A DNA stretch of 64,000 nucleotides from Chrysophaeum taylorii (taxonomy: Eukaryota > Sar > Pelagophyceae > Pelagomonadales > Pelagomonadaceae), in NCBI GenBank assembly GCA_029834535.1, contig JAQMWT010000679.1, positions 111,796 to 175,795 on the forward strand, read 5' to 3'. The notes beneath the pieces were generated by a model. It saw only the letters and a program-made list of their open reading frames with translations. It was not told where the DNA came from and searched no databases. This document shows positions 27,001-57,572 of this stretch, piece after piece. How positions within the stretch are numbered: the first letter of the stretch is position 1; the number at the start of each line of letters is the position of its first letter. The translations under genes and the position numbers were made by a program.

Positions 27001-30000
27001 GCTTGGTTGCGGAGAGCGGTCGCGGTCCGCACAGCGTTCGCCGCTGCCTCCAATGACAGTCCGTTTCCATTCCGGGCAGTCTGCTGCGGGGCCTCGCGCG
27101 ATGGCATCTGGTAAGCGGTCGCATCTCGTGCGATACGCACCTTAGATCGCAACGATGGGTCGTCAGACTTGAAGTCTCCGGCGTGAGGCGCGGTCTGCTG
27201 CTCGGTGCTGTGATGTGCAACTGACGCTTGGCCGCGGAGAGCGGTCGCCGCGCGCACAGCATCAGCCACAGTCTGTAACCTCATTCTGTTACCATCCAAG
27301 CCACTGGCGGTAGAAATCTGCTGCGCAACACGTGGATCCTCGCGTGATGGCGCTTGGTGGAAGGCGGTGCGTTCGACTTGCACCGCTGTCCGTAACGATT
27401 GAATATCGCGCAGAGGATCTTCAGCAGAAACTGCCGAGTACTCGTGTGAGGGCGCCTGGTCGTGGAAGGCAGTCGCCGAGAGCGCTGTTTGCGCCGCTGT
27501 CTGCAATGACAGCCCATAACCACCAAGGTCACTGTACGGAGCTGCAGTCTGTTGTGCAACGCAAGCGACCTCGCGCGGAAAGGCGGTCTCCGCACGTGCC
27601 ACTTGCACCGCCGTTCGCAACGATTGCACATCGTGCGCAAGGTCTTTGGCGGGAGGCGCTTTCTTCTGCAATCTCTGCGGTTGTTCGTATGATGACACCA
27701 CTTGGCCGCGAAACGCATTTGCCGAGTGAGCGACATGCGCCGTTGTCTGCAACCCATTACTACCAACCGGGCTGCTAGTAGGAGCATCAACTTGCTGCGG
27801 TTCCTTGTGTGATGGCTTGTGGCTGGCTCGGGTGCCTTTGACCGACATTCGCAATGATGGAATGTCGCGGAGGTGATCTCCGACAAAATCCGGAGTCTGA
27901 TGTGTACTCTGCGGTTGACTGTCTGACGGTGCTTCTTCGCCGCGAAACGCGGCCTCCGCGCGCGCGACTTGCGTTGGCTTTTGGAACAAGAGCCCATCCA
28001 CGCTCGTAGTGACAGGATCTGCAGTTTGCAAAGCAACCCGAGCGGTCTCGTGTGCTAAGGCGGTCGCTGCACGCGGGACTTGTGTCGATTTGCTTAACAA
28101 CGGCTCGCAATGTACACTGTCACGGGCCGTGGTCTGCGTGCTGTAGTGTACGAATTGTCTGCGGGAGCTACGTGCTGGGAACGTGACCTGCTCTGGTCTT
28201 CGTAATGATGACTCGTCGCGAACAAGATCCTCTACAGTGGTCTGCGTGCTGTGGTGCGCAAATTTTCCGTGGGAGCTACGTGCTGGAAGCGTGACAAGCG
28301 CCGGTGTTCGTATTGATGACTCCTCGCGAACAAGATCTCCGACAGCGGTCTGCGTGCTGTGATGCGCAAATTGTCTGTAGGAAACACGCGATGGGAGCGT
28401 GACGTTCGCCGTTGCCAGGCCCCGCGGGCTATCCGCGGGAAACACTGTGGTTTGTCGCGTCAAGTCAGGCTGCGTTTGGCACCGGAAGGCATTAGCCGCT
28501 TGCGCTGCGCCAAAGGACGGTGCTTGTTGACTCAAGTTTCGGTCAGGCCTGTCTATCCCTGATTGTACTTGTTCCCAACCATTCGTCTTTTCCGGCGAAG
28601 TGGCGACTGCAGCACGAAGAGCCGGGCCATCCCGGAGCGGAGAACGGTCAGATAGCTCTTCCCCGAACGAGGGTTGTTTAGGTGAGGTGGTCGATGTCAG
28701 CGGATACGAATCGCTCTGTTCGCCGTGCTGCTGTTCTTCAACTTGAGATTGACCCCAAGTGCGAGTCGCTTCACGCGCAAGATTGACAACAGTCTGGAAC
28801 GACGGTCCATCACCGAATGAACTATTGTCGCGGTGCGCATCTTCAATCTCGTCATGTTTGTGGAAGCTCTCCGCCGTCCGCCACTCACCGACACGAAACG
28901 ACCGCGGGTCGCGCCCCACTGGCTCCAAGTACCGCTGCTCAACGGCGGCGGCTTGGTCCGTCAAGCGGCGTGCCGCTTGCCGCACTGATTGTGCCGCAGC
29001 GCTCCATGACGTTTCCGGACGCCATTTTGGCGTGGGATCCACGTACCAGTCCTCTTGTCTGGGGCTTCGGAGATTGGATCTCGCGGCAGCGGCCGCCGGC
29101 GCACTTTCGTCCCAACCGGATGTCGCGGCACGCCTTTCCGAAGACCGATCGACATCGTTGTCGTCGTAACTGTCATCCGGTCTTCTTTGTCGGCTGCCGT
29201 TTTTATCCTCATCCGATGCGAATGCAGGCGCCGGTCTCGCGTAATTATCGTCATCCGACATGGCAGACCGGAATGCGGCGTCCGCCGCAGCGCGCAGCGC
29301 GATGTCGTCTTTCTCGCGTCGTCGCGACGCAAACCGCACCGAGTCGGTCGTCGTGCTCAACGATTTGTATTCTTGGTCAGTGTCGTCTGCAACGAGGGGC
29401 GTACCCTCATTACCCTCCTCCTCCTCCTCCTCCTCCTTGAAAACGGTTGGCCGTTGGCGAGTCGTCGGACGGGATGGCGTTGTGACGGGAGGGTCGGTGA
29501 CCGGTGAGCGGGGCGACGAGTCATTAGAGTACGAGAGGTAGTCGTAGTCGTCGCGAGGCGTCGACTTGAGTGCGACGGGGCGAGGCGGGGGCGATTCGGC
29601 TCGTCTGGAAGGCGAAGGGACCTCTCGCCTGAGGTGCGGGGGCTCTTCTGGCTTGAATCGTCTTGTGGGAGAGTCTCTCGTATTGTCCAAGCACGCACGA
29701 AGGCGAGGCCTTCTCGGGGCGGGCTTTGACGTCGACGCGGGAATATCCCAGGCAGCAGGCTTGCTGAGCTCGCGCGACTTGCGCACCGTCAACAGCCGTT
29801 CCGATGGAGGCCGAGCAGGCGCAGGGGCATTGAGGTCGCAGTAAAAGGCCACGGGCGACTTCTTCGCGGCGACGAGTGCGTCCGAGGACCCGCCCTCGTC
29901 GACCGACGGTTTCTGGATCATAGGCTCATCCTCGGGTTTGGTCTTCAGCTTGCGCCTCGGCTTCCCGCCCGAAAGTCGTACCTTCTGGTTCCCGATCACG

Positions 30001-30452
30001 ATCACGACTGGTCTCTGCCCCTCCCCGTAATCGACGGCGGCGTCGCCTGACTCAGTTTCCCGCTCGTTGTCGTCGTCGATGTCGTCCTCGACGTCGTCGT
30101 CGTCGGGCACGCCAACGTCGCGACGACTCGGCTCCGTTGGCGCCTCTTTTAGAGACGCGCCATTCTGGCGTGACCGGAGCCCCGCGCGGCGCGAAGACTC
30201 TTCGCCACCGCCACCACCAGCTTCGTGATGGTCCAGAGGAACATCTTCCTGGTAGTCGACAGGAAAGTCGCAGCCTCGCGGCAGCCACTCGACGCTCCGG
30301 AACCCTGCGGCGCGGTTCTGCTCGTACTCGCTGTGCGACTCGCGATACTCTTCGAGGTGCCGTGGGTACGGCACCTCGCCGTGGTTCGGTCTCCTCAACA
30401 TCGCGGAGCCAACAGCAAACGTCCGCGAGTACCGTTCAACGGCTTTCCTCAT
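24030..30452 (-). CDS. Very large disordered protein with tandem ~74-residue repeats
   Basis: This is a continuous open frame of 2,140 aa starting at the ATG at 30452. The same frame continues upstream for 16 codons to a likely splice acceptor (TTTTAG, 30501-30506), so a 5' exon may exist and the true start may differ. The first ~70 residues look folded and rich in Tyr/Arg. The rest is polar and mostly disordered. The middle carries imperfect tandem units, each with G-L-S-x-x-A-A-x-A-x-R, L-R-x-Q-A-S, E-Q-Q-T-A and a D-P-S-L-R-S-like segment. Shorter S-T-Q-T-containing units lie before them. The C-terminal third is Ser/Pro/Arg-rich with R-x-x-S/T-P sites and ends in an acidic D-E-D-E-W-S-D-I. 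I do not recognise the family. A structural or cytoskeletal role would fit, but this is only a guess. Confidence 0.7.
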   Translation of the reverse strand: MRKAVERYSRTFAVGSAMLRRPNHGEVPYPRHLEEYRESHSEYEQNRAAGFRSVEWLPRGCDFPVDYQEDVPLDHHEAGGGGGEESSRRAGLRSRQNGASLKEAPTEPSRRDVGVPDDDDVEDDIDDDNERETESGDAAVDYGEGQRPVVIVIGNQKVRLSGGKPRRKLKTKPEDEPMIQKPSVDEGGSSDALVAAKKSPVAFYCDLNAPAPARPPSERLLTVRKSRELSKPAAWDIPASTSKPAPRRPRLRACLDNTRDSPTRRFKPEEPPHLRREVPSPSRRAESPPPRPVALKSTPRDDYDYLSYSNDSSPRSPVTDPPVTTPSRPTTRQRPTVFKEEEEEEEGNEGTPLVADDTDQEYKSLSTTTDSVRFASRRREKDDIALRAAADAAFRSAMSDDDNYARPAPAFASDEDKNGSRQRRPDDSYDDNDVDRSSERRAATSGWDESAPAAAAARSNLRSPRQEDWYVDPTPKWRPETSWSAAAQSVRQAARRLTDQAAAVEQRYLEPVGRDPRSFRVGEWRTAESFHKHDEIEDAHRDNSSFGDGPSFQTVVNLAREATRTWGQSQVEEQQHGEQSDSYPLTSTTSPKQPSFGEELSDRSPLRDGPALRAAVATSPEKTNGWEQVQSGIDRPDRNLSQQAPSFGAAQAANAFRCQTQPDLTRQTTVFPADSPRGLATANVTLPSRVSYRQFAHHSTQTAVGDLVREESSIRTPALVTLPARSSHGKFAHHSTQTTVEDLVRDESSLRRPEQVTFPARSSRRQFVHYSTQTTARDSVHCEPLLSKSTQVPRAATALAHETARVALQTADPVTTSVDGLLFQKPTQVARAEAAFRGEEAPSDSQPQSTHQTPDFVGDHLRDIPSLRMSVKGTRASHKPSHKEPQQVDAPTSSPVGSNGLQTTAHVAHSANAFRGQVVSSYEQPQRLQKKAPPAKDLAHDVQSLRTAVQVARAETAFPREVACVAQQTAAPYSDLGGYGLSLQTAAQTALSATAFHDQAPSHEYSAVSAEDPLRDIQSLRTAVQVERTAFHQAPSREDPRVAQQISTASGLDGNRMRLQTVADAVRAATALRGQASVAHHSTEQQTAPHAGDFKSDDPSLRSKVRIARDATAYQMPSREAPQQTARNGNGLSLEAAANAVRTATALRNQASAAHHSPEQQTAAPAGDVISDDPLLRSKEYITRAASACQTPLHEDPQQTIPDGYGLSSQMAADAIRAAVDLRSQASVAHHSTEQQIGAPSINPSCEDPSLRAKVHMTRDASSCQTPSHEEPQQTVSNGKGLSLEAAANAVRAATALRSQASVAHQSTEQQTADTYGDLVSDDGSLRSNVHFTRAATACQTPLYEDPQQNTLDGNGLSSQTAANAIRATNAIRAANAIRAAANLRSQASFAHDSAEQETAASVRYPSRDNDPSLRTTVHVAHALTASRSHAPSHKDSQQMAAPASNPGGNGLSLQTAGNLERVATILRTHASSHDQSQQWTADPPDGPAGYVARAKTSLRGQVSSREQAGSEQQTADLESLLSKRAANIVHASNSHSSSRESSNEQQEIEKDEHSGVPVTARTHPSFRTAADVVRLSTSRRAATHDDEAVYSKTEVARAHTSLRSDAVRFATPHQLNSKEADTKQHRVSFRAAAKAIRVVAHRAPAGEPVGYPSTQRAPPSGDEPSDESLTTLGREPPEEAALAGNPPAATQYQLSDEASSTNSGRGTTEKTACSRDREHAALRGAANTVRFAMTQRVETSPAASPPKSSARQQAAPHATTPHVGAVPTEEEEYSLNEDSKDVSASTDAPSAVYSGSEATSIEGLSGATKRSTESSEDPPPPPPRTSPDHLMRRVAAATTTPVDREIQASLQEIATMVEDLERVAGAPLVITERKLSSSRSPAVTGPSEQRAVMVQTPARPKRTSSPLALDRRSRTPSPRRTSGHSGHKQTPSARKLPRRRTPSPQRTWADDEHLIPVSVSTLEATQVREAVKPRLRTKAERSEINDMYTTNPPHRHAEQPSPVLLAFSTPRKKRRPSPRPASDPSRRLSSDTEDRNLEFTRQLESYFALDDASTITTRADVTCLTAQDEETDTIGEDSVPPPPPPPRHKPNDQQDPQSAAVAPSGDAAATVLAGDDPGGCDFDEERSRPPRDEDEWSDI
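26150..27330 (-). repeat. Tandem 222-226 bp coding repeat
   Basis: Recurring landmarks (TTACCAT-like) at about 26391, 26613, 26836, 27061 and 27287 give a period of 222-226 bp, or about 74 codons, within the large minus-strand protein gene. More diverged units extend to roughly 25,800 and 28,400. All stay in frame. One unit carries an extra triplication of an A-I-R-A-like 7-residue block near 26310-26360. Confidence 0.75.
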
Positions 30453-43008: not shown

Positions 43009-43590
43009 AGGGGTTTAGGAGTAAACTCGAAGGCTAAAGGGCGGAGCGTGCCCTGATTAAAGCAGCTTATATTGGCGGGGGTGAGAGCGTCGAGCGGAAA
43101 GGAGAAACTGGGGTGAGTGGAAGGAAGGACGTGGACGCAAGCCGATTATAGGGGGCGGCCAAGCGCGAGCCTAACCGTCCGGGCGCCGCCAGGGACCCGG
43201 CGGCCGAGAGACGCAGGGGCTGGGGTTTAGGAGTTAACTCAAAAGGCTATTATTATTATGGTTTGCATCTCCTAGGCTCAAGGTTAGGGCGGAGCTTGCG
43301 CTGATCAAAGCAGCTTAGATTAGCGGGGGTGAGAGCGTCGAGCTGAAAGGAGAGTGGGGTGAGTGCAAGGAAGGACATGGATGCAAGCCGATTATAGGGG
43401 GCGGCTAGGCGGCTATCCATCCGGACGCCGCCAAGGACCCGGCGGCCAGGGGCCGTTGGCGTTTCTGTAAGCGTCTGGGGTTTAGGAGTAAACTCAAAGG
43501 TTAGCGAACGTGCGCTGATCAAAGCACCTTAGATTGGCGGGGGTGAGAGCGTCGAGCTGAAATGAGAGTGGGGTGAGTGGATGTAAGGGT
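43009..43590 (+). repeat. Tandem repeat R2, direct array
   Basis: There are about two and a half units of 215-265 bp, each opening with GGTTTAGGAGTAAACTC (43012, about 43222 in a variant form, about 43480). Each then has GCTGATCAAAGCA, a GCGGGGGTGAGAGCGTCGAG block, GAGTGGGGTGAGTG, GATTATAGGGGGCGG and a G/C-rich GGCGCCGCCAGGGACCC-like segment. The same units occur inverted on the far side of the retrotransposon (54,537-54,985). Confidence 0.75.
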
Positions 43591-43695: not shown

Positions 43696-43790
43696 TGGAG
43701 AGATTTGACCCTCTCCGGGTACATGGTAGAGACCGCGTGCGGTCTTATCCGTGTACAGACCATTCCGCTTGTCACATGCTACTACACAGG
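43696..43790 (+). repeat. Older LTR-like repeat (family B), left part, split by insertion
   Basis: The sequence from TGGAGAGATTTGACCCTCTC to CTACTACACAGG matches 57,579-57,672 closely. It is cut at ACAGG by the retrotransposon and resumes at 54,168. Confidence 0.75.
43786..43790. other. Target-site duplication ACAGG, left copy
   Basis: The five bases ACAGG directly precede the 5' LTR and are repeated directly after the 3' LTR at 54168-54172. This is the usual size for Ty3/Gypsy integrases. Confidence 0.9.
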
Positions 43791-44130
43791 TGTGGCGGCA
43801 ACTCCCGCCTCCTAAGGCTTACCCCTCTTCTAGGGCCCCCCTTATCAGGGGCACCCTACTCCGTTCCGATGATGTCAGGGAATTCTCTATGACATCATCT
43901 TTCTTTTTTCGTGACGCACGTCACCCTGATTTCCTATTTTCGATATATCCTTGATCATAAAGCAACAGCCGATCCTCAAGTTGAGAGGACCAGGCGCAGG
44001 AGTTGTTTGTGGTCGCGTGGCGGGAGAACGGCCATCCTCGTCCAGTGATCCCTCCAAAGGCACGGACGCGATCGGCGAGCCAGGATTCGAAGGCACGCCA
44101 GGTAGCCCCCAAAATTCTCCTTACGCCACA
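43791..44130 (+). repeat. 5' LTR
   Basis: It is 340 bp, from TGTGGCGGCAACTCCC to CCTTACGCCACA. A TATA-like CGATATATCC at 43941-43950 could be the promoter core. Confidence 0.93.
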
Positions 44131-44132
44131 GG

Positions 44133-44152
44133 TGGTGGAGGAATACGAGATT
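44133..44152 (+). other. Primer-binding site for minus-strand synthesis
   Basis: Two bases after the 5' LTR the sequence TGGTGGAGGAATACGAGATT begins. Its complement ends in CCTCCACCA and continues inward with a TCGAAT T-loop-like stretch, as expected for the 3' half of a tRNA. The tRNA identity could not be settled. Confidence 0.7.
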
Positions 44153-44595: not shown

Positions 44596-47500
44596 ATGGA
44601 AGACGATGATGCTGCCGCCGAGCAGCTACGATATGAAGAACCGCCAAGCCGTCAGGATGAGACGAACGAGCGGAATGACGATGATGATAATGATGATGAT
44701 GAAGAAGAGCACGATACAGAAGTTGACGAGGAAGAAGAGCTAGACTACAACGACGGCAAGCCCACGGAGAGACCGACGGGAGGACGATCGACAGCTCCGT
44801 CGACGCGTGCAGTACCCCAGGACCCAACGATAATGAAAGAGTTCTATGAGGCTCTCTTGCAGGAATTACGCGTAGAGAACGAACGCGAGCAAGAACAACT
44901 TTTAAAACTATTAGGGGAAGATAATGAACGAAAAGAACGGCTACAACGGAAGGAGAAAGAAGAACTAATAGAGCAACTGCGTCAGGCCAACGCTCGAGCA
45001 GACGCCTTCCAAGATCAAGTAAGCTCGTTGACACGTGAAAGAGACGAGTTACGTACGCCGAGTCGATCAAGGCGAGCGAGCAGTCCGGAGTCCCGAGCTG
45101 AGGAAGAGCCGCCGACTACACGATCACGCGCGAAAGCTAGGAAGCCGCGCTATGAAGACGATGATGAAGAAGAAAAGGAGGAGACGCGTGGCGCCGGAAA
45201 GATCGACACCCAGGAGTTCTTGATGAGTTTTACGGATCGACTCGCGGGCGCGTTAGCTAAACACGATCGCTACAAGGAGCGGCGATCAACCTCTGGATTA
45301 AAAACCGAAACTTTTAAACTGGTTCTCGATGGACGCGACCAGGACCAGTTCGATTTAGATGCGGCCGCGGTGATGAGAACGTTCGCCGAAGACCATTTCA
45401 GCTTGGAGAAACTCCGATATCTGCTTCCCGCGACCCTACGCGACACGGTCGCACCGATTTTTCGAGAACACTTAGAGAAGTATGAAGACCTGTGTAAAGA
45501 CCTCGATCACCCAGCGTCTTTCTATTTACGTCGGGATATCGACGATGACGAGTACGGTTCCGTTGTACGACGGATACGACGATTGAACGAGAAGTACTGC
45601 CTCAAGATTTTGAAATATTTCCGAGAGAGTTGTCCGCTGCCGGTGACGGCAGAGGAATCATTACGAAAGTTACAATGCACGACCCAGGCGACCGTTCCGA
45701 AACGTTCTGGAGAACGTCACGTGCATACGTATTGCACTAAATTTCAGAAAGAGGCCATGGCATACTGTTCCGTGGCCAACCGAGATCTCAACGACGTGGA
45801 GATCATCTCTTACTTGATACGTGGACTGGAGTCCAGCGAATTGAAATCCCGCGTGCGAACGATGCGCAGCGGACACCCGACGACGTATGAGACGTTTACG
45901 TCTACGTTGTCGCTGATTACGCGGCTCGAAAACGACTTCGCAACAGCCATGGCGGAGAAGAACAGCCGAAACTCGATGAACCCCTCGAGCGGGAAGCCGC
46001 AGAAGCCGCCGCCTGGACGCGGAGGACGAGCTCTCGTCTCGGGAATGAAAGATAAAACGACGAAATATGAAGCCTTACGTCTCGAAGAGAATCCGAAAAA
46101 GTGGTTCGAGAAGACGTGCAAGGACTGTGGGTTTTTCTTAGCGACCCACGACAAGGATGAACACGGGAACCGCATCATTTGCAACCGCGAGCCCGACGAC
46201 TATTATGTAGCGATGTACAAATACATCAGCGATGGCAGAAAGCCCATTTCGCGAGGACGATGGGAGAGCCGACAAAGGAAAGATAATCATTCGCGTGACG
46301 ACGGCAGTTCTAATGCCACCCTCGGTTCGAGCGCTGCTTACGATATTCAGAGCAGACTCAATGATATGGGCACGCAGCTAACCACGGTTATGGATACCGT
46401 GCAGCACTTAACAGATGGACACGGCCGATCGTCTTCGACACGAACGGGCCGTCGAGATAGCCGGAGCCCCCGACGCCACGACAAGAGCCGTAGCAGTTCA
46501 TGCCAGCGCCGACGGAAAGATAGCAGGAGCTCTAGCATACATTCACGCCGCCGCCGGCGACGAAGATCTCGCGATCGAGATTCGGACGATGGTCGTTACC
46601 GAGAAGACTCGGGACAGTCGTCTGCAACGTTCGCATTTACGACCCCTTGCGGTCAACAGTTACCATTAGGAGTGACGGTGTACCCGAACATGGACAACCG
46701 CACCGACGACGCAGCCGACGCCCTTGCCGCGGCCGCATTCGAAGATCTTGCTCGCCCACCGATGGACGAGCCACCCAACGACGTGCTGACCACTCGTCGG
46801 TCTTTGGCACAGATTTATGAGCAGATGTCGAGCGATGAGCTCGAAGATTCGAGCGAGGAACTTGAAGCTCCACGATACTGGGAAGGCGATTCAGATTCGG
46901 AAGATGAAGCAGCTACACTTTTTGAACCAGTGTCCGCGTTAACGTTATTTGACAAGTCGTCCACGGACGACCCACCGTTTATTTTTGATGAGGAAGCCCT
47001 CGATGCCATCGGCTTATCTTTGGACCCTTCAGAGACGACCGATGGCGACCGAACTGGCTGTGAGCCAGACATGAATTTCTGCAGTGATAGCTCGTGCGCG
47101 CATTCGACTGACGAGACGATGACAAGCGCGAGTATTGCAGACGACGATTTTACGCCAGAGTTGACGTCGGGGACGACGCCATCTTTTCCTGCGGACCCCC
47201 CCGAAACGGTTTCGATTACTACGAATCGAGACACGGATACGCCGCCGGAAGAAAAGGATAGATTTATGAAGAAGATTAGCAGCGTTCTCAAGTGTGACGA
47301 AGACGAGCAGACGTGGAACCTGCAGGATTGGTGGACGAAAGCTCGGAATTTCTTACTAAAGAAGCCACCGGAACAACCGCGCAGCTGCAGACTCAAAGCC
47401 GCAGCTGACACGGAACCGATCGCCGATACTGATGAGGATCAGCAGGCGACGAATGAATTCACAGATGCATTCTGGAACGACGAAATGAATGATTTATGGG

Positions 47501-50067
47501 AGGGGTTGTTTGCTTCCAAGGTTTACGAAGACCAGGATCCCCTACCAGCGTTTATTCCCTCGGAGATTGTCTTGGAGGAAAAGCGGAAGCCGCCAGATAA
47601 AGAGGCTGCCGCGAGCATTATGACGAAGACGCCAACAACAGATAATACGAAAGCTCAAGCCGCGGTATCGATGCCCAACCCCGGAGAGGAGCGATTCAGA
47701 GCCCGATGTGCTCACACTTCGTTGACGCCGCGAGATGGCAAGACGATCGAAGATGATTTGATTACCCTCCGTTGTTTAGATACGGGTACTTTAACGTTTA
47801 TAGCCTGTCACATCTACAGGAATCGTGACGGACCGAAATTCTCGACGACCATTGGTGTCGATGGAATGGCAGATGTTTCTTATATTTGCCGAGAAATGGT
47901 CAAAAAGTTGACCAAAGATCAGTTGATTCTCGATGAAGGCGAACTTCCGATTAAGCGCAAGCTGTACGGGTCAGGGTTGAATACGACGACGATCCATCGT
48001 TGGATCACCCTTCGGGTCGCTTTCGCCGACGACTTCGCTGCCCCCATTGTTGCTATTGTAGCCGATACGAATTATCTGTTCCTGTTGGGAGGGCGCGATA
48101 TACGAGTTTTAGGAGCCATCGTGGATTTTCCCCATGATCGGATCTGTTTTTGTCGAACCCAAGTCGTCTACGGGCGCAAGAAGATTAAAGTTAAGGATGA
48201 ACGAGTCGATGCGCCAATCGTGACCTTTCGGTCTATTTACGATCGAAATCCGATAACCGTACCAATTTACAATCATCAACACGATGCCTTTCGGCAGAGT
48301 CTCGACCTGGTCAAGACTCGAGTTTACGCTCGTTTGAGCACGATTAAAGATCTCCGAAGCCCGCCGCCGGAACGTAAGGTAGCCTTGGCTACGCGGGGAC
48401 ATGCTACGACCAAATTCTCCCCAGCTCCGGGAGAAGACGCGCGAGAAGTAATCGCTTATGCTGCGCGCACGCTTCAAATCGAGCCCGGTCGAACGTACAA
48501 TCTACCGGTTATTTTGTCGAAACCTATGGAAAGAGGACAGGTTTTCGTCGCTACGTTTGCTGAGAACGAGCAGTTGGGAGTTGTCGAAGGAATGTGTTCT
48601 TCTTGCGAAGAGCGCGACCGGTCCGCTGCTCGGGTGGCGGTTACTGCCACGGAAGAAGTGCCGACGATCGTCACTCAAGGCGAAGCCCTTGCGATTGGTG
48701 ATATCGTTAGGTACGAAGATGAGTTGAACGTCTCTACGATCAACGAACTTACGAAAGAATGTGAAGAAGGATACGCCAAGGGGAACCTTTCTTTCACCGT
48801 TTCTGTCGCTAGTCACTTGACGCGATGCGACGAATCTCCCCCGCCGATGCTGCTGAGCACGGTGCAGAAGGACGCTACGACCGCTATGACGGACAAGTCC
48901 ACCCTCAAACGACCTGAAGGCAGCGACGATTTCGCTCAAAGGTCAGAAGAAGATGAAAAGAAATGCCGCGAGATCACCGAAGCGGAGATCCGCCGCCGAT
49001 ATGAACAGGTTCAATGGCTTCCAATCACGTATCGCAAGGTGGTGATGCTGTTCAGTGGAGCCGGAGGCAGTACTTTAGGTCTCCAACGAGCCAACGAAAC
49101 GTGTGGGACGTCGTTTCGAGTCGTGCTAGCACTCGATGCGTCGGATACCGCCAACCAGATACACCACAAGGACTTTCCGAACATTCCTGTGGTGCAGCAC
49201 ACATTGTGTGGTCGCTATGTTACAACCTTACGGTTGATCGAATCTTATTTACCCTACGCGGAATGGTCGTCGTTGCTGTGTGTCGCGTCGCCACCCTGCG
49301 TACACTCCGCTCTGTGCAACTTGACCTCCAGAGATGTTGGGAAAGGAGTTACCGCTACCCACTGGACGATGACATTATGCAAGATGGCTGGTTTCTTCAT
49401 GTGGTTGATAGAGCAGGAGGCTTCGATTATTTCTTACGTTGCACGTTTGCACCCGTACGTATACGTCGTCAATTTTTACGACATAACTCCTAGTTTGATG
49501 AGCTGTCGCGTGCGATTGTTGGTTTCCAGCCATCCGCTCCATTTGCGCGCAGTTCCAAAGACTTGCAAGAATATGCAGCAAAAGTTCGCCGCAGCACTTG
49601 GCTACGCCGACGTACGACATTTACTTCAGATGAACACTTTAGGATCATCACGAGCCGCGACAGATGCAGCTTATACTGTTACGCGTGTCCCGCTTCGCGT
49701 AGGACCGCACCGTTCCGATTACAGATCTCTGAATTTGGACATGACTTCAGAGTTGCTGACGATGCCCCCTGATTTTGATTGGGCCGGCCTCTCCAGGACG
49801 ACCTCGTTGAAACACTTGGCGTCCGTCGTGCCACCTGACACGATGGCCTTATTAATGCTCGATCTGCACAATTCTGTGACCAAGGAATTTCGCCTGAGTG
49901 GCGAAGCTTTACCGTCAGCGTTGAGTCCTGCAGACCGACCGTTTGATTATTATTTACAAATTGATGAAACCACCCTTCGTCACGTACAAGTTCCGCTGTT
50001 AAACACGCGCACACGTGTCATACGATGGGTGTCGACTGATGATCTTCAAGATCGCACCAAATGGTAA
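44596..50067 (+). CDS. Retrotransposon polyprotein: gag, protease-like region, C5-cytosine DNA methyltransferase
   Basis: The product is 1,823 aa. Residues ~1-190 are acidic and coiled-coil. A gag-like helical domain follows (~200-450), then a Cys/His cluster (C-K-D-C ... H ... H ... C near 510) and an Arg-Ser-rich stretch (~615-665). A protease-like part lies at ~1060-1180, with L-D1062-T-G and, 27 residues on, V-D1089-G-M-A-D-V-S, and later L-L-G-G-R-D-I. From residue 1480 a cytosine-5 methyltransferase is clear. Motif I is L-F-S-G-A-G-G (1485-1491). An acidic residue (A-L-D-A-S) ends the next strand. Motif IV is S-P-P-C with catalytic Cys1568. Motif VIII is C-R-V-R (1637-1640), then L-T-M-P-P-D-F and a V-V-P-P end. 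Motif VI reads I-E-Q-E instead of E-N-V. The TAA at 50065 separates this frame from pol, which continues in the same frame. Confidence 0.88.
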   Translation: MEDDDAAAEQLRYEEPPSRQDETNERNDDDDNDDDEEEHDTEVDEEEELDYNDGKPTERPTGGRSTAPSTRAVPQDPTIMKEFYEALLQELRVENEREQEQLLKLLGEDNERKERLQRKEKEELIEQLRQANARADAFQDQVSSLTRERDELRTPSRSRRASSPESRAEEEPPTTRSRAKARKPRYEDDDEEEKEETRGAGKIDTQEFLMSFTDRLAGALAKHDRYKERRSTSGLKTETFKLVLDGRDQDQFDLDAAAVMRTFAEDHFSLEKLRYLLPATLRDTVAPIFREHLEKYEDLCKDLDHPASFYLRRDIDDDEYGSVVRRIRRLNEKYCLKILKYFRESCPLPVTAEESLRKLQCTTQATVPKRSGERHVHTYCTKFQKEAMAYCSVANRDLNDVEIISYLIRGLESSELKSRVRTMRSGHPTTYETFTSTLSLITRLENDFATAMAEKNSRNSMNPSSGKPQKPPPGRGGRALVSGMKDKTTKYEALRLEENPKKWFEKTCKDCGFFLATHDKDEHGNRIICNREPDDYYVAMYKYISDGRKPISRGRWESRQRKDNHSRDDGSSNATLGSSAAYDIQSRLNDMGTQLTTVMDTVQHLTDGHGRSSSTRTGRRDSRSPRRHDKSRSSSCQRRRKDSRSSSIHSRRRRRRRSRDRDSDDGRYREDSGQSSATFAFTTPCGQQLPLGVTVYPNMDNRTDDAADALAAAAFEDLARPPMDEPPNDVLTTRRSLAQIYEQMSSDELEDSSEELEAPRYWEGDSDSEDEAATLFEPVSALTLFDKSSTDDPPFIFDEEALDAIGLSLDPSETTDGDRTGCEPDMNFCSDSSCAHSTDETMTSASIADDDFTPELTSGTTPSFPADPPETVSITTNRDTDTPPEEKDRFMKKISSVLKCDEDEQTWNLQDWWTKARNFLLKKPPEQPRSCRLKAAADTEPIADTDEDQQATNEFTDAFWNDEMNDLWEGLFASKVYEDQDPLPAFIPSEIVLEEKRKPPDKEAAASIMTKTPTTDNTKAQAAVSMPNPGEERFRARCAHTSLTPRDGKTIEDDLITLRCLDTGTLTFIACHIYRNRDGPKFSTTIGVDGMADVSYICREMVKKLTKDQLILDEGELPIKRKLYGSGLNTTTIHRWITLRVAFADDFAAPIVAIVADTNYLFLLGGRDIRVLGAIVDFPHDRICFCRTQVVYGRKKIKVKDERVDAPIVTFRSIYDRNPITVPIYNHQHDAFRQSLDLVKTRVYARLSTIKDLRSPPPERKVALATRGHATTKFSPAPGEDAREVIAYAARTLQIEPGRTYNLPVILSKPMERGQVFVATFAENEQLGVVEGMCSSCEERDRSAARVAVTATEEVPTIVTQGEALAIGDIVRYEDELNVSTINELTKECEEGYAKGNLSFTVSVASHLTRCDESPPPMLLSTVQKDATTAMTDKSTLKRPEGSDDFAQRSEEDEKKCREITEAEIRRRYEQVQWLPITYRKVVMLFSGAGGSTLGLQRANETCGTSFRVVLALDASDTANQIHHKDFPNIPVVQHTLCGRYVTTLRLIESYLPYAEWSSLLCVASPPCVHSALCNLTSRDVGKGVTATHWTMTLCKMAGFFMWLIEQEASIISYVARLHPYVYVVNFYDITPSLMSCRVRLLVSSHPLHLRAVPKTCKNMQQKFAAALGYADVRHLLQMNTLGSSRAATDAAYTVTRVPLRVGPHRSDYRSLNLDMTSELLTMPPDFDWAGLSRTTSLKHLASVVPPDTMALLMLDLHNSVTKEFRLSGEALPSALSPADRPFDYYLQIDETTLRHVQVPLLNTRTRVIRWVSTDDLQDRTKW

Positions 50068-53000
50068 ACTCCAGAGGTACCGTTGATTCCGCCTGCAACA
50101 GATGAGCCGGGGACGTCTCATGCTTCTTCTGCTGCCCCCCCCCGACAACCAAATTTAGACGTTCCTCCAGATCCTGAGCGAGATCGGGAACCGAAGATTA
50201 AGAGTGAACCGAGTGTTCGTGTCAAAGGCGAGAGGATCAACAAAAGCCACCCGGAAGTGAAACTAAAATACGAGAAAAAGTTCGATGTGCCATGGAAAGA
50301 TGCGCCGCGCGATGCCGAGGGTGCACCACTGCCGCAGACTCCTGAGCATGTCAAGGACAACGAAGCAATGAAAGTTAAAATTCCTACGAAGGAAGAAGTT
50401 GACAAGGTTGTGCAGGAGCTGGGAATTTCTGACAATCCGCACTTAGATGACGAGGCGAAACTGATGCTCCGTCACTGTGTGCAATATTCTTGGGCTTTTT
50501 CGACCCGATTATGAGACCTGTGGACTCGCCTCCTGTGTCTCTACGATTCAAAGACGCGAATCCGCGACCGATAAAGATGACGCCGCCGATTGACGCCTGC
50601 GAAACTCGATTGTGCCGCAAGCAGATCAGCGAGTGGTGCCGGGATGGAATTCGTCCGGCCAACTCACCTTGGGGCTTTCCTGTGTTGATGCTTCCGAAGA
50701 AATGAGCTGAGATTGGAACGTCAAACGCGTTCGTTCCGTGCTGCAGTTGACTTACGTCAGCTCAACGATCAATGGTCAATGACAGTTGGCCAAACATTCG
50801 ACAAGATGATGCTTTAGCTCTCGCGATGAGACGATGGCGGACATGCGCGATATTAGATGGGGATACCACAACCTTCGTCTGGATCCGGCAGCGCAGGACG
50901 CTGTCACGATGGTTAGCCCACTTGGCGCTCATGGTTTCTTGCGATTACCTCTAGGTGTGAAGACAGCCGGAGCTCTTTTCTGCAAGCAAATGGCGAGCGA
51001 CAGCGAAATGGATGTATCAAGACTTGGTTGCGTTTGTTGACGATATTATGATGGGATCCGACGATCTTCATCGACATTTACAAGTTTTGATCGAAGTGAT
51101 GTGTCATTTGGCACAGAGAGGGTACAGCGGTCGAACCGCGAAGTTCCACCTTCCAAGGATGATATAGAACTGGGACACTCTACCCCAGAAGGCGAAGCCG
51201 AATCCGAAGACGCTGGAAGCGCAGAAGATGCCGATTCCAGGTACTTTACCGAATACTTTGAAGACCCAGATACGATCTTTCATCGGCATGAGTAATGGCG
51301 CCGGCGATATGCGAAGGGCTACTCGAAGATTGTTAAGGGAGACGATTATGCCTCGAAGGTGCGAAAGTTCGAGTGGACGCCCGAGTGTCAGAAGGATACG
51401 TTGTTGAAGCTTTGGTTGATTCCCGTGGAGTCTACCACGCCGATTATGATCTGCCTTTTCAGATCCGATCCGATGCTTCACAGGATGGACTTGGAGCATA
51501 TCTCTTCCAGATTGTCGAAGTCAAGGACGATGCCGGAAGAGTGACTCGAGAAGAACGAGTGATTGAATACTGGAGCCGAGCTGCCGAAGGAGATGCGGAA
51601 TTATGAGCCCCGTCGGCTAGAGCTGCTGGCAGTTATACTTTCTCTAGAGCACTTTCGAGCCTACATCGAAGGGCACCGGACTGTTTGGAGACCGATCACC
51701 GAAATTTGACGTTTTTACGTAAGGCGACGCACCGTCTGGGCAGCTTGCTCGTTGGGCGATGCGCCTCGCCAATTTTGACCCTGAACTTGGTTACAAGCCG
51801 GGAAAGTCACCGGGAATGAGTATCCCTGACTGTCTCCCGCAACCCGATAGATCGTCATCGAGACTGACGAGTTTGGAGACCTTTGAACCACGCGTATTTA
51901 GTGTTCCAAGAGCTTCCGACCTGTTGATGACCGAGTTTCCTCTCCGGCTGCCACTTCATAATGTCGTTTATTACGACCGAACTGCCGGAAGACGAAGACG
52001 AAGACCCTGAAAGGATCCGATGAAATTGGCTACGTCTCACGCTACGAGACAACGTCGGAAGAACCGTGCGCGTGATGAGCCACAGGTCTTCAAGGACGTA
52101 GCCGCTTACAAGTTGCGTATCGATAAGATACCCGATAATATGACGCTCGCTGAGATCGCACGTGAGCAAGAATCTGATGCTACGTGCGAGGATATTCGCT
52201 ACCGAATGGCCCAAGGTCAGGCGCCGCGACGTTCCCGAGCGAACGAACGATTCGAAGTCGTTAAAGATGTTCTTTACCGCATTTCTGCTGATTCGCACCC
52301 GATGATTGTTGCACCTGCTACGTTGCGCAAACGCATTATTCGACTCTATCATGACACTCCGGTTAACGGTGGTCATATGGGACGTCACAGTACCGTCAGG
52401 CTATCCAAGAACGATTTTGGTGGCCTCATAGAACGAAGTTGGAGTCTTCATGCTGTTTGGTTTGTCAGAAAGCTCGCGCGCGAGCCGAAACAGGCTGGAC
52501 TCTTGCAGCAGCCATACGATGGTGATGGTGCTGTTCTTTGCATGGATTTATTTGGACCCTTGCCTTTGGTCCCGACGTATCTTCTGTATTTTTGATCCGT
52601 TCTCGCATTTCTTGATTCTGGATGTTTTGAACGATAAGACTGCTGAGTCTCCTCGAGTCTTTTGTCATTAACATTCTCCTCAAGACGCTTGCCCAGATGA
52701 TTCGTACCGACAACGGTAAGGGTGTGAACAGTTGATGCGCGAGTTCGCCATCTCTTTAACACCGATACCAAACTACGATTCCTTATCATGCCCAGTCGAA
52801 CCCGGCTGAGCGCGTCAACCGATTATCAAGGCCTTCCTCCGTGCTTGCCTTCAAGGCCGGAACATCACGGATTGGCCTGACTTTGCTCATTATATTGCGT
52901 TTTGCTATAACCGCAAGTTTATTCCAGGCACGCAGATTTCTCCCTTTATGCTGCGCCTGAACCGTCAGCCGATGCTACCGACTGACTACACGCTCATGGA

Positions 53001-53787
53001 TTTTGATACGATTTTGCCGAAGACTCGCCTGATGCAGTCGCCGAGAACTCGCGCGTTGATACAAAGATCGTCCGCGAGGCTCGTGATAAAGCGAAGAAAC
53101 AGCGATTGGCTTACAATGCTGATCATGTTGATGTTGAATACAAGGAAGGACCGCTTTACGTTTCTACATCCCTCCTTCAGAACAAACTTCGACCGGAATG
53201 GCGAGGGCGTTTATTATCAAGGAACGCCTCTCCCGGTCACCTATAGGTTTGAGTCTCTCGACTCGCCGCCCGAAGAACGGCGTGTTCATGTAAGTCAGAT
53301 CACGCCGGTGATGGTACCTCCGATCGTTGATCAAACCATCCGCAAACCCGAAGAAACCTTCCGTGATGATTATCAGCACGGTAAGTTTGTTGTTTTCCGG
53401 ATTCCTGACCGGAAGCGCTCGATTGGCGCAAGAAGCATGTTGCCAAGTTTACGAGCGCACGCGATTACCAAAATGATCGTGTTGCTCTACATTTCTATTC
53501 CGATTTGGGTCCGAACGATGATGTCGCTTATTTCAAGCCGACCTCTCACCTTTCGCACCGCAAGCTCAAGCCCGAATTCAAGGACGTTGAAGGTCGAAGT
53601 TTCACCGACAAGTCCCGAATTTCCTCAACACAACTCCGTGTCACGGATCGCTCCGCACGAGATTGACGTGTTGGTCCCCAAGTTTACTTTACGCAGTGGT
53701 CGAGTTCCTGAACCGATCATCACCCGCGTTTATCAGAAGATTCGTTCACGAGATGCTCGTAAGGCGAAGCCGCGCTCCTCGCGCTAG
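50068..53787 (+). pseudogene. Frameshifted pol: reverse transcriptase, RNase H, integrase
   Basis: Pieces appear in order but in changing frames. The RT entry block R-P-A-N-S-P-W-G-F-P-V (50490-50702) is followed by V-D-L-R-Q-L-N-D (50734), D-I-R-W-G-Y-H and L-R-L-P-L-G-V (50834-50970), and the catalytic F-V-D-D box (about 51033). RNase H D-A-S-Q-D-G-L-G-A-Y-L (51373-51603) and the L-G-Y-K-P-G-K linker (51759) come next. The integrase zinc region has L-Y-H-D-T-P-V-N-G-G-H (52020-52592). The integrase core has M-D-L-F-G (about 52548), T-D-N-G (about 52708) and H-A-Q-S-N-P-A-E-R-V-N-R (about 52785). After it lies a W-x-K-K-x-V-A-K ... V-A-L-H-F-Y module. At least eight frame changes are needed. 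All catalytic acids are still present, so decay, or read error, is recent. Confidence 0.85.
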
Positions 53788-53827
53788 CACCTCGCTGGGG
53801 CAGCTCGAATTCTTACCAGGGGAGTCC

Positions 53828-54167
53828 TGTGGCGGCAACTCCCGCCTCCTAAGGCTTACCCCTCTTCTAGGGCCCCCCTTATCAGGGGCACCCTACTCCG
53901 TTCCGATGATGTCAGGGTATTCTCTATGACATCATATTTCTTTTTTCGTGACGCACGTCACCCTGATTTCCTATTTTCGATATATCCTTGATCATAAAGC
54001 AACAGCCGATCCTCAAGTTGAGAGGACCAGGCGCAGGAGTTGTTTGTGGTCGCGTGGCGGGAGAACGGCCATCCTCGTCCAGTGATCCCTCCAAAGGCAC
54101 GGACGCGATCGGCGAGCCAGGATTCGAAGGCACGCCAGGTAGCCCCCAAAATTCTCCTTACGCCACA
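53828..54167 (+). repeat. 3' LTR
   Basis: It is 340 bp and matches the 5' LTR apart from two substitutions I can see (A to T and C to A, around 53917 and 53931). The preceding bases ACCAGGGGAGTCC form only a weak polypurine tract. Confidence 0.93.
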
Positions 54168-54516
54168 ACAGGGTAGGGATTTAAGCCCTAACTCCTCAGG
54201 GACATTAAGTCCCATAGAAGCTTTTACACGGACAACGAGGAACGAAGCTTCTGATAATTAAGCAGAAGACCCTGTACCCTGCGGTAAGCACCTGGAGGAT
54301 TTCTCCTTGTTGGAAGAAAGCTTCAGATCGGGTTCTTCATAGTCTTGTAAAAAGATAGTTGCGGAAGGGGTAAGGCAGGGGGAAAAAGGGAGGATAAGGC
54401 ACGAGAGAAAGCCGTATTAATTCGGAGAGAAAACCCTCATGCTGAAGGGGTGTGAGAAAAGGCGCGAAGAGCTCCAGAGCATTGTACACATTATGGTATA
54501 ACTCTCTGGAGCACCT
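54168..54516 (+). repeat. Older LTR-like repeat (family B), right part
   Basis: It begins with the right copy of ACAGG and continues GTAGGGATTTAAGCCCTAACTCC. It is collinear with 57,673-57,977, including CCTTGTTGGAAG and GGAGAGAAAACC. Together with 43,696-43,790 it forms one interrupted copy of about 440 bp. No coding region borders it, so it may be a solo LTR. Confidence 0.7.
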
Positions 54517-54536: not shown

Positions 54537-54985
54537 ACGCTTACAGAAACGCCAACGGCCCCTACGTCTCTCGGCCGCAGGGCCCCTGGCGGCGCCCGGA
54601 CGGTTAGGCTAACGCCTTGCCGTCCTTACTTACACCTTACACCCCTTACACCCTCCCACCCCACTCTCATTTCAGCTCGACGCTCTCACCCCCGCCAAAC
54701 AAAGCTGCTTTGATCAGCGCACGTTCGCTAACCTTTGAGTTTACTCCTAAACCCTTACTTCAGGGAGCGCCAAGACGTTACAGAAACGCCAACGGCCCCT
54801 ACGTCTCTCGGCCGCCGGGTCCCTGGCGGCGCCCGGACGGTTAGCCCCCTAAAATCGGCTCACACCCACTCGTGCTTACACCCACTCACCCCACTCTCCT
54901 TTCAGCTCGAAGCTCTCACCCCCGCCAATCTAAGCTGCTTTGATGAGCGCACGCTCGCTAACCTTTGAGTTTTTTCCTAAGCTCG
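54537..54985 (-). repeat. Tandem repeat R2, inverted array
   Basis: There are two units in the opposite orientation to 43,009-43,590, each ending (plus strand) with CTTTGAGTTTACTCCTAAACC or a variant. They contain GGCGGCGCCCGGACGG and CTCACCCCCGCCAA blocks. Confidence 0.75.
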
Positions 54986-56011
54986 TAGTTGTTGACCCTA
55001 ACCCTTTTCTAGTGACCCTTGAGGCTAGACCCTAGACCCTTCTTTCTTTTGCGTATTGTTTTTAACAGTTCGAATGTCGAACGCCTTTTCCACCTCACGC
55101 TCCCTCTAGGTCAATCACTCTCTGGAGTGACTGGTTTTTATTACTTAAAGGTTATGGGCCCAGAGTGTTATCACACTGATTTCTCGCCGCAAGACGGAAA
55201 TTTGATTAAACAAGGCTTGGAGACTTTTTGCTGCTTGAAAGACTCTAAGCTCGCGCTCAAAGTCGGCATGCCGTTGGTTGTCAGGAAGTTGAGAAACTCG
55301 ACTGGAAAGAGCGAGGCGTCGTCTTCCGACCCAACCTTGAGAACTCCGTCGCCTTATCTCCGGGAAAGGCCAAGGTCATGCGCGCTTTGTCAGCATCGAA
55401 AACCTCGTTTCGGCGGGGCGTGAGAATGGCGCGCTGGCTGGAAGAGCCACCGAGGGTCGCGGAAATTGTCTGCGGGGTCGCCTTAGACGGCTTGGGGTCT
55501 GGCTCGCGCGAATACCTGAGCATAAACCCTGATTCAGGGAACAGACCCCCACAAAACCACACACATCCTTCATGCACCACCACCCATAGCAGTCGACCTT
55601 TAAAAACAGACAGACAAACGATGACCCCGACTAAGTCCCGCATACCTATCTACGCCGTTTAGGCACATTGTAGTGGTTCCTCTTGGCCGGACCAGAGGCC
55701 TCAACAAGTCCTTTCTCCCAATCCCAACCGCGGGTGAAACCACCACACGCCCGATCTCAGCGTAAACACTCACGCCATCTCGAAATCGGACAATCAAATG
55801 AGGGTAATAGCAGAAAGGGGGATACAAATTCCTGGTACATTGGTTCCAGTGGAAGCGCCGGTGAGGGTGTCAAGGTGACATCCCCCCCCCCATAATGGCA
55901 ATGGCAATGCCAGGGCAACAATCAGGGTAAGTCGGGTGGCAGGCAGGCAAGTGGGGTGATGGACGTTACTGCCACAGGAGCCCCCTACTTGAGATGAAGT
56001 CGTCCTCGACT
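54986..56011. other. Repeat-rich region without a supported gene
   Basis: It starts with telomere-like CCCTAACCC and CCCTAGACCC words (54996-55035). The stretch 55140-55420 has an open frame with protein-like composition but no ATG and no motif. The stretch 55530-55620 shares AGTCGACCTTTAAAAAC with 40,755-40,815. It is probably decayed mobile DNA. Confidence 0.4.
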
Positions 56012-57572
56012 TCACGGGCGACGAAGGTCACGCTCACGAATAGCACGATAAGCTCGGTCAGCTACATCAGCAGGAACTTTGTTGCTGTGGAGGCCGAAGT
56101 TACTGACGAGGACATCGATTTCATCCGGGCGAAAATCAGTCACACAGGGTTCACAGCCCTCCATATTTGGTCGTAGGCGAGTGAAACTGCCTCCGTCAGG
56201 GTCCTTGTATTCTGGTCTTAAGCGTCGCTCGGCCAGAGGCTTAGTAGGATCAAAAACACGAGGTCGCAAATCGGTATAGTAGTGAAGCGCAACGGTATCA
56301 TAGTCGTTGTCGTATTCTTCGTAGACTTTGGCAACGTAGATACGCTTCTTCCACGCGCTGGATCGTCCTTTAACCCTGAAAATCGCGAACTTGCCGTGCT
56401 TGAAACGGTCGCGGTCTGAAGGTAGATGCAGAGGGGCTGAAGAAGTGTCGATGCTTGGCACTTTCAAAGGCACAATCTACTGTACAGATACTACAACCGA
56501 CTCAGCATCATCGTCGTTGACGTCCTGAATTTGGTAAACGACGGGAGAGATCTTTCTGGTAACTATGTAAGGTCCGCGCCGAATAGGCCATAGCTTGTGG
56601 CGCGTCTTAGGCACGAAACGCAAAACACAATCACCTGGGGGAAACTGGATGTCAATTTGGTGGGCATCATAGTTGAGTTTCTGGCTCTCCTGGGCCTTTT
56701 GGTGAGCTCGTGTAACGAGTCGACTGTAAAATTCAAACTTGTTCTTGAAGTCCATCAAAATCTGCTGACGCGATTGCGGTAGATCGCGCTGTTCACTCAA
56801 AAGATTGTAATCGGGTGGTAACAGGGGCTGCTTGCCGGTACGCATTATGAAAGGCGAAATCTTCGTTCTCGGAATGTACATCGTATTGTACATGAATGCA
56901 ACATGGGAGAAATTCGACCAATCTGGCTGACGCATTCATCGATGTAGCAAGAAGGCTTTGATAAATCGATTAACAGCAGTGCGGTTACTCTGAGGGTGAT
57001 ACGGAAGGGTAGTACGATAACGTACGTTGAATAGACGAACGAACGTGCGAAATAAATGCGTCGCGAACTCGACCATTATCGTGAGACTATGCACCGTGGA
57101 GAGCATCCTCGAGCACAATCTTGTCCACAAACGCGGAAAATTGGGCCTGCTTGGTGTTGATCAGAGCCAATTTCAAGAAATGCGACGCTGCATCGTACAT
57201 CGCGAGTACGTGTACAGGTCAGCACCTCGCAAAGGTCCAATCAGATCCATACCCAGGACATAGCAATCTCCGACGCGATTCGGTTTATAGAGCAAGCCAT
57301 CACGCTTAGGCATGGTGGATCGAATCTTCTGGCTAATAATGCAGGCATTGACAAGTGAAACCGACGATGATGAGCGTTTGGCCACCAGCCGTTCGATTTG
57401 ATTCGCTGTGGAGTCTCGTCCAACATGGCCTCCGAACAATCCTCGGTGATGCATGGCGATTACACTCTTTCGCATCGACTGAGCGACCACAATAAGACGT
57501 TGAGAGTCCGAATCATCGACCTTATACAACACGTCGTTATCAACTTCATACGGTACGGATGACTGCTCGTCT
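56012..57572 (-). pseudogene. Remnant of a second Gypsy-type integrase
   Basis: One minus-strand frame runs from 57,572 to 56,012, broken only by three in-frame stops (TGA at 57173-57175, TGA at 56936-56938, TAG at 56477-56479). It holds the integrase zinc-binding part (M-H-H-R-G-L-F-G-G-H-V-G-R), H-P-Q-S-N-R-T-A-V-N-R-F from the core end, a Y-I-P-R-T-K-I-S-P-F block, and G-P-Y-I-V-T-R-K-I. The tail W-K-K-R-I-Y-V-A-K-V-Y-E is homologous to the end of the complete element. Gag, RT and RNase H are missing, and the family B LTR-like sequence begins immediately upstream at 57,579, so most of the element was deleted. Confidence 0.75.

Follow-up and report, generated by a model that had tools for sequence, protein, structure and literature searches.

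A Ty3/Gypsy retrotransposon family of Chrysophaeum taylorii that appears to carry its own divergent C5-cytosine methyltransferase

The window considered here is a stretch of 64,000 nucleotides from contig JAQMWT010000679.1 of the Chrysophaeum taylorii genome (assembly of 70.8 Mb in 697 contigs). It holds a retrotransposon bounded by long terminal repeats (LTRs), in which a frame of 1,823 codons (44596-50067) is open throughout, with no internal stop. An earlier note on this DNA, made from the letters and their open reading frames (ORFs), had placed a C5-cytosine methyltransferase at the end of that frame, after a protease-like region and before reverse transcriptase (RT), and had called the element Gypsy-type. 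The features of the element are as follows (pN/pS is the ratio of non-synonymous to synonymous differences).

43786-43790, no strand: target-site duplication, left copy, ACAGG; by direct reading identical to 54168-54172
43791-44130, plus strand: 5' LTR, TG...CA, 340 bp; 99.4% identity to 53828-54167
44133-44150, plus strand: putative primer-binding site, starting TGG, directly 3' of the LTR; from sequence only
44596-50067, plus strand: 1,823-codon frame with gag-like, protease-like and methyltransferase regions; its TAA (50065-50067) is private to the window copy
45196-46005, plus strand: gag-like region, residues ~201-470, strongly constrained (pN/pS 0.18); named by position only
47857-48129, plus strand: retropepsin-like region, VDGMADVSYI ... 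FLLGGRDIRVLGAIVDF, residues 1088-1178; motif by eye
49027-49890, plus strand: C5-cytosine methyltransferase domain, residues ~1478-1765; profile and profile-profile comparison
49048-49068, plus strand: motif I, LFSGAGG, residues 1485-1491; read in the sequence and compared among copies
49288-49299, plus strand: motif IV, SPPC, residues 1565-1568, with the putative catalytic Cys1568 (codon 49297-49299)
49408-49419, plus strand: motif VI, IEQE, residues 1605-1608, with Glu1606 aligned by hhalign to the Glu of ENV
49504-49515, plus strand: motif VIII, CRVR, residues 1637-1640
49729-49836, plus strand: motifs IX-X, LNLDMTSELLTMP ... VVPP, residues 1712-1747 (VVPP is 1744-1747)
50068-53787, plus strand: pol region (RT, RNase H, integrase), with many small deletions in the window copy; from tblastn pieces and indel density, with RVT_1, RNase H and rve found in other copies
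50135-50143, plus strand: poly-C tract between methyltransferase and RT, differing in length between copies
53828-54167, plus strand: 3' LTR; 99.4% identity to the 5' LTR over 340 bp
54168-54172, no strand: target-site duplication, right copy, ACAGG; direct reading

As a Ty3/Gypsy LTR retrotransposon should, the element has paired LTRs of 340 bp and a 5-bp target duplication on either flank. RT, RNase H and integrase follow one another in that order in Ty3/Gypsy elements, and Pfam profiles recover this order in other copies: locus L015 has RVT_1 and RT_RNaseH, and the overlapping locus L016, on the same contig, has H2C2 and rve downstream. The RT of locus L004 has Ty3 as its second-best match in the PDB (E 2.7e-16), and in this copy the methyltransferase and RVT_1 lie within a single open frame of 2,273 amino acids. 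The gag-like region found no match in the profile search; neither did the retropepsin-like region, a by-eye motif that reads D-G-M where the triad D-T/S-G is expected. The comparisons support a Ty3/Gypsy LTR retrotransposon with a C5-methyltransferase between the protease-like region and RT, as the earlier note had it.

Taken alone, the domain of the window copy matches the C5-methyltransferase profile PF00145 over the motif I region only, at an E-value of 1.4e-4 and 21.9 bits. This lies just below the Pfam cut-off of 22 bits, so the claim needed a test at the level of the family. For this we used an alignment (A2) of 13 chosen members, from which locus L041 was left out on account of a stop and in which L036 was trimmed to its intact part; a further alignment (A1) omitted L007 and L025, whose domain contains stops, as well as copies broken by frameshifts. 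PF00145 is matched by every one of the 13 members of A2, under an E-value limit of 0.1 and with 8.5e-10 as the best value. L004 (25.5 bits) and L034 (39 bits) pass the cut-off and L038 (21.6 bits) falls below it. DNA-methyltransferase families of PHROGs are matched both by the window copy (7.4e-6) and by the family's most distant lineage (1.9e-11), and the NCBIfam family dcm weakly, far below its cut-off. In profile-profile comparison with ten phage and plasmid C5-methyltransferases A2 scores 97.7% in hhalign (E 2.2e-12, 264 columns), and ten column shuffles and one reversal give 0.6% at most. The alignment places GAGG, PPC, the Glu of motif VI, R-x-R, the motif IX stretch and VPP in register with the known enzymes. 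On these comparisons we regard it as almost certain that the domain is a divergent but complete C5-cytosine methyltransferase. It would be an 'orphan', assignable to no DNMT class in a comparison set without Dnmt3 sequences. Hhalign gives 59% (141 columns) against a DNMT2-like protein of the host and 0.1% against a DNMT5-like protein of the host, which itself matches the ten known enzymes at 97.2%. Searched against PDB chains with E up to 1, the A2 profile has the sole match 3g7u (E 0.45).

The element is abundant. A search with the whole ORF, in which 26 of 2,672 candidates were scored, found at least 36 stretches that, besides the window itself, are 75-98% identical, several with long open frames. 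With an E-value limit of 0.01, PF00145 has at least 121 matches genome-wide, a figure that pools cellular genes with two classes of element (see below). Eleven regions were then sampled; two belong to the lineage of the window copy (A), four to lineage B, which includes L038, at ~76-78% identity, and five to lineage C, which includes L034, at 34-38%. A separate search for lineage C (113 of 940 candidates scored) gave at least 123 stretches, among them some near 80% and one at 64%. The lineage C methyltransferase also stands directly before RT, as the sequence of L016 shows, and the RTs of lineages A and C are 59% identical.

The residues checked for their part in catalysis are kept wherever they are covered. 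The counts come from codon tables built from tblastn pieces of at least 70% identity with stop codons skipped, so that badly broken domains drop out and are not counted against conservation; the window copy is included. All 26 loci of lineages A and B have GAGG; PPC with Cys1568 is found in 25 of 25 covered loci, the motif VI Glu likewise in 25 of 25, and both Arg of R-x-R in 24 of 24; the first proline of VPP is present in 23 of 24 loci (one Thr) and the second in all 24. The motif IV Cys is invariant in A2; L018 has Cys in place of the Phe of motif I. The four lineage C rows, 37-38% identical in the domain, retain GAGG, PPC, the motif VI Glu and RxR. All five motifs named in the earlier note are present, and neither of the outcomes that it had said would refute it came about: the methyltransferase matches are significant, and Cys1568 and the GAGG of motif I are conserved among copies. 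Its doubt over motif VI is eased, though not removed: the Glu aligns with that of ENV and is conserved, whereas the Asn has given way to Gln, and in two rows of lineage C to His or Glu.

Selection has acted on the domain. Within lineage A (pairs covering more than 70% of a segment; L009 and L027, which are poor, and the lineage B loci L038 and L039 excluded) pooled pN/pS is 0.22 for the methyltransferase and 0.18 for both the gag-like region and the tail. Elsewhere it is 0.33 for the protease-like region, 0.39 between protease and methyltransferase, 0.54 for the linker and 0.55 for the N-terminal part. Between lineages A and B the substitution-rate ratio dN/dS is 0.06-0.09 in 14 comparisons (seven A by two B copies), with dS at 1.5-2.3, near saturation; between A or B and lineage C dS is saturated. 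The two lineage B copies differ from one another by 4 synonymous and 19 non-synonymous changes, without sign of constraint, which is expected of decaying insertions. The codon comparisons show that the methyltransferase of the Gypsy family has been under purifying selection.

The window frame itself ends in a way that is not typical. It is open over its 1,823 codons, as the earlier note held, yet that it ends at the methyltransferase is peculiar to this copy: in the 45 bases read at that point the TAA occurs in none of 20 other loci, 19 of which continue in frame, the exception (L006) having a one-base shift. The stop at 50065-50067 is therefore private and not part of the architecture of the family. 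Across the poly-C tract, with each of the pairs L003/L028, L009/L010 and L011/L012 treated as a single copy and L015 as reference, 9 of 20 copies beside the window keep methyltransferase and RT in one frame, 10 change frame and one (L027) is unclear. Programmed frameshifting at the tract was considered; the pattern does not distinguish a real slippage site from homopolymer error. One-base indels also occur in a CCCCC tract near codon 1415, in L011, L013, L014 and L022.

Compared with L014, the pol half of the window copy has, over 50250-54000, 65 small deletions and 5 insertions, with 18 gap openings per kb. In nine other loci the density is 0.26-0.78 (seven loci), 2.9 (L016, partly lineage C) and 9.3 (L021). 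The excess in the window starts near 50.25-50.5 kb and stops before or within the 3' LTR. Most likely, judging from this pattern, the pol half is a poor stretch of assembly. The thought that pol is decaying while gag and methyltransferase are kept was rejected, the damage being indel-like and seven of eight other lineage A loci not sharing it. L021 is partly similar in indel density, and other elements of the assembly may look broken for the same cause.

The same genome holds a second, different element with a C5-methyltransferase domain. Loci L032 (C96:62800-66800), L031 (C120:37500-41200) and L044 (C96:66700-69300) encode another such domain, with PCQ and ENV motifs, which matches PF00145 over the cut-off (E 1.1e-9 and 5.9e-8). 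On contig C96 the match lies inside an open frame of 1,952 amino acids; in L032 the domain is followed by rve at residues 1016-1110 (E 0.0036, below the Pfam cut-off), and downstream of rve comes RVT_2, the Copia RT, at E 6.4e-39. Integrase before RT is the order of Ty1/Copia. At least 52 stretches on 38 contigs carry this methyltransferase (38 of 1,377 candidates scored), and one pair of copies gives a dN/dS of 0.13 in the domain. In a tree of 19 C5-methyltransferases the Gypsy lineages form one clade (100/100) whose placement is not fixed and which meets the long branch of the DNMT2-like protein; a single clade of Gypsy and Copia methyltransferases is not rejected by the approximately unbiased (AU) test (p 0.29). 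Hhalign finds no similarity between the two (0.1%, with only two Copia sequences), whereas the Copia domain matches the ten known enzymes at 97.2%. Mainly because that similarity is absent and the element classes differ, we consider independent capture likely, though not proven.

Two genes mentioned above belong to the host. The DNMT5-like protein (L030, C621:16000-19500) is a frame of 2,086 amino acids with a DNMT domain, a Cys-rich stretch and a partial SNF2 match (E 2.9e-8), the layout of DNMT5; the host thus appears to encode a protein that joins DNMT and SNF2. The DNMT2-like gene (contig C634) adjoins a gene for a chlorophyll-binding protein, which among PDB entries best matches antenna proteins, for example VCPI, FCP and PCPI; we take these to be from algae with red-lineage plastids. 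PsaA of the plastid contig C697 (103.6 kb) has 9m4f as its best PDB match, followed by what are presumably cryptophyte, diatom and haptophyte entries. A pattern search for 18S rRNA found none. The host has a red-lineage plastid, and the earlier note's 'stramenopile alga' is plausible, being compatible with this plastid and light-harvesting evidence.

What might the methyltransferase do for the element? Its place in the polyprotein, together with its constrained catalytic residues, speaks for an enzyme active in replication, with complementary DNA (cDNA) in the particle as the simplest substrate. The methyltransferase would be packaged alongside RT in the virus-like particle and would mark the new double-stranded cDNA of the element before or at integration; the cDNA would thereby arrive with the 5-methylcytosine mark of host DNA, and the DNMT5-like protein of the host could maintain such marks. 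Taken whole, a Ty3/Gypsy family with a captured, divergent methyltransferase in gag-pol that acts on its own cDNA is our best explanation and, on balance, a probable one. That the enzyme is active in living copies is quite probable; that cDNA is its main substrate has something short of an even chance. Activity and role are read here from sequence. In yeast, methyltransferases from DIRS elements carried out de novo CG methylation (PMC5890265), which may count in favor of an active element-borne enzyme, though of another class.

Several observations weigh against such a role. The LINE and Gypsy enzymes did not methylate in the yeast assay, and among them was the closest known enzyme, KnitGypsy-Dnmt3, a result that its authors call inconclusive (PMC5890265). 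CpG is not depleted in the element, the observed-to-expected ratio being 1.44 in ORF1, and among copies transitions at CpG (1.85%) are no more frequent than those at other C/G sites (1.99%); counted at third codon positions, they amount to 2.74% for CpG, 2.45% for CHG and 2.72% for CHH. With CpG neither depleted nor rich in transitions, nothing suggests that the copies have long carried CpG methylation of a mutagenic kind; methylation in other contexts, or of cDNA only, may occur. Methyltransferase and RT lie in different frames in 10 of 20 copies, across the poly-C tract, so that their co-packaging is not assured for every copy. The Asn of motif VI, the Gln of the Q-x-R-x-R of motif VIII and the Gly-Asn of motif X are changed, and AlphaFold, run on the single window-domain sequence, gave a predicted confidence (pLDDT) of 33.7 and so no structural support.

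Other explanations share part of this evidence. The enzyme, made from expressed copies, could act in trans on nuclear chromosomal DNA, silencing or tuning the element itself or disturbing the methylome of the host. More than 100 stretches with such domains in the genome, and a host protein that could maintain the marks, would suit this; it is nevertheless unlikely, the methyltransferase being fused beside RT in a polyprotein rather than made as a separate protein, and the signature of CpG decay being absent from the copies. A DNMT2-like action on RNA, either the genomic RNA of the element or its tRNA primer, finds some encouragement in the two best single-sequence PDB matches of the window domain, both DNMT2-type enzymes but not significant (E 0.4 and 0.45), and RNA methylation was raised for the SymbioLINE element by de Mendoza et al. 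(PMC5890265). We think it improbable: hhalign ranks the host DNMT2-like protein well below the ten DNA methyltransferases (59% against 97.7%, an unequal contest of one sequence with ten), and motif IV lacks the PPCQ pattern of that protein.

A remnant that has lost catalysis and persists for the sake of folding, nucleic-acid binding or capsid architecture would account for weak single-sequence profile scores and for altered motifs VI, VIII and X. It would hardly account for a Cys, a Glu, two Arg and a GAGG that are invariant wherever covered, also at 37-38% identity, and we give it little credence. As for a chance resemblance of motifs or an artefact of assembly, the error-like pol half of the window copy is the one point in its favor; the profile-profile comparison with its controls and the presence of the domain in 26 lineage A and B loci and at least 123 lineage C stretches, on many contigs, refute it, and we attach next to no weight to it. 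The origin of the domain was also sought outside the genome. Viral and genome contigs scanned with a few short peptide patterns, an insensitive method, yielded no relative; a tblastn search of phages with the window domain turned up a single chance match, and tblastn of lineage C in plasmids gave non-significant matches only (E at least 2), four of five being annotated cytosine methyltransferases.

A bolder reading, that of action on cDNA carried to both element classes, deserves mention. Ty3/Gypsy and Ty1/Copia elements may each have captured their own C5-methyltransferase downstream of the protease-like region, with well over 100 stretches together and both under purifying selection, such that self-methylation of cDNA is a near-requirement in this host. 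We put this forward tentatively, as more doubtful than not. If true, the near-requirement could reflect, for example, a host that treats unmethylated DNA as foreign. Independent captures, if such they are, would be a strong hint that the methyltransferase serves transposition itself. The question would then be testable in this host, given its DNMT5-like protein, an assembly of roughly 71 Mb and many copies of both elements.

The remainder of the window contains further features. Diverged direct repeats with a spacing of 214-248 bp flank the element at 43044-43588 and 54541-54990, the two sets mutually inverted. One open frame at 15840-21164 has Exo_endo_phos2, cyclic-nucleotide-binding domains, a PI3K accessory domain and a PI3/PI4 kinase, possibly a phosphatase-kinase fusion; a frame of 2,140 amino acids at 24030-30452 (minus strand) has no Pfam match at E up to 1. 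At 56012-57550 (minus strand) lie integrase pieces of another Gypsy element, 38% identical, and the ORF downstream of them has by eye a C-terminal stretch (GKF..FR ... YVA.VYE.YD) in common with the DNMT element, again without a Pfam match at E up to 1.

In the literature covered, few retrotransposons with a cytosine methyltransferase of their own are described. The open-licence literature offered no title on this element or host, and passages from three of four further sources (PMC9998398, PMC6338049, PMC12477816 and PMC3145265) describe no C5-methyltransferase inside an LTR element. That retrotransposon DNMTs had been reported in dinoflagellates and charophytes, as the earlier note said, agrees with de Mendoza et al. 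2018, who found them in LINE (long interspersed nuclear element) and DIRS elements of Symbiodinium and in a Gypsy element of Klebsormidium (PMC5890265). A later paper, citing that study, places DNMT3 members in 'LTR Copia and DIRS' of streptophytes and dinoflagellates, and mentions orphan DNMTs too; the sentence names no further host group (PMC12344493). 'Copia' may there be a slip, since the cited paper has Gypsy for the charophyte, and the abundant Copia elements of Symbiodinium are described in it as being without any DNMT domain (PMC5890265).

SymbioDIRS-Dnmt3 and SymbioLINE-Dnmt resemble the present families as retrotransposons with hundreds of DNMT copies; the SymbioLINE enzymes are likewise an orphan lineage, and in SymbioDIRS one ORF is common to DNMT and RT. 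Unlike the elements described here, they are LINE and DIRS elements and not LTR Gypsy or Copia (PMC5890265). The Dam-type methylases of DIRS elements are also DNA methylases in a retrotransposon, but are N6-adenine-specific, structurally unrelated and found in another order of elements (PMC5890265, PMC6338049). Closest is KnitGypsy-Dnmt3 of Klebsormidium nitens. This LTR Gypsy element, which has no introns, likewise encodes a C5-methyltransferase as part of its Pol polyprotein; it occurs in several copies, and its DNMT is under purifying selection (Ka/Ks below 0.2, against 0.06-0.09 between lineages A and B here). It differs in that its enzyme is a relative of Dnmt3 in a charophyte host (PMC5890265), whereas the present enzyme, compared without Dnmt3 sequences, is unassigned to class and resides in a red-plastid alga; the Gypsy family here further splits into three or more lineages, with identity as low as 37%. 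A Gypsy element with a DNMT has been a known kind since 2018; to this small company the genome adds a Gypsy family whose orphan enzyme has lasted across lineages 37-98% identical in the domain, together with a Copia-type family that carries another such enzyme.

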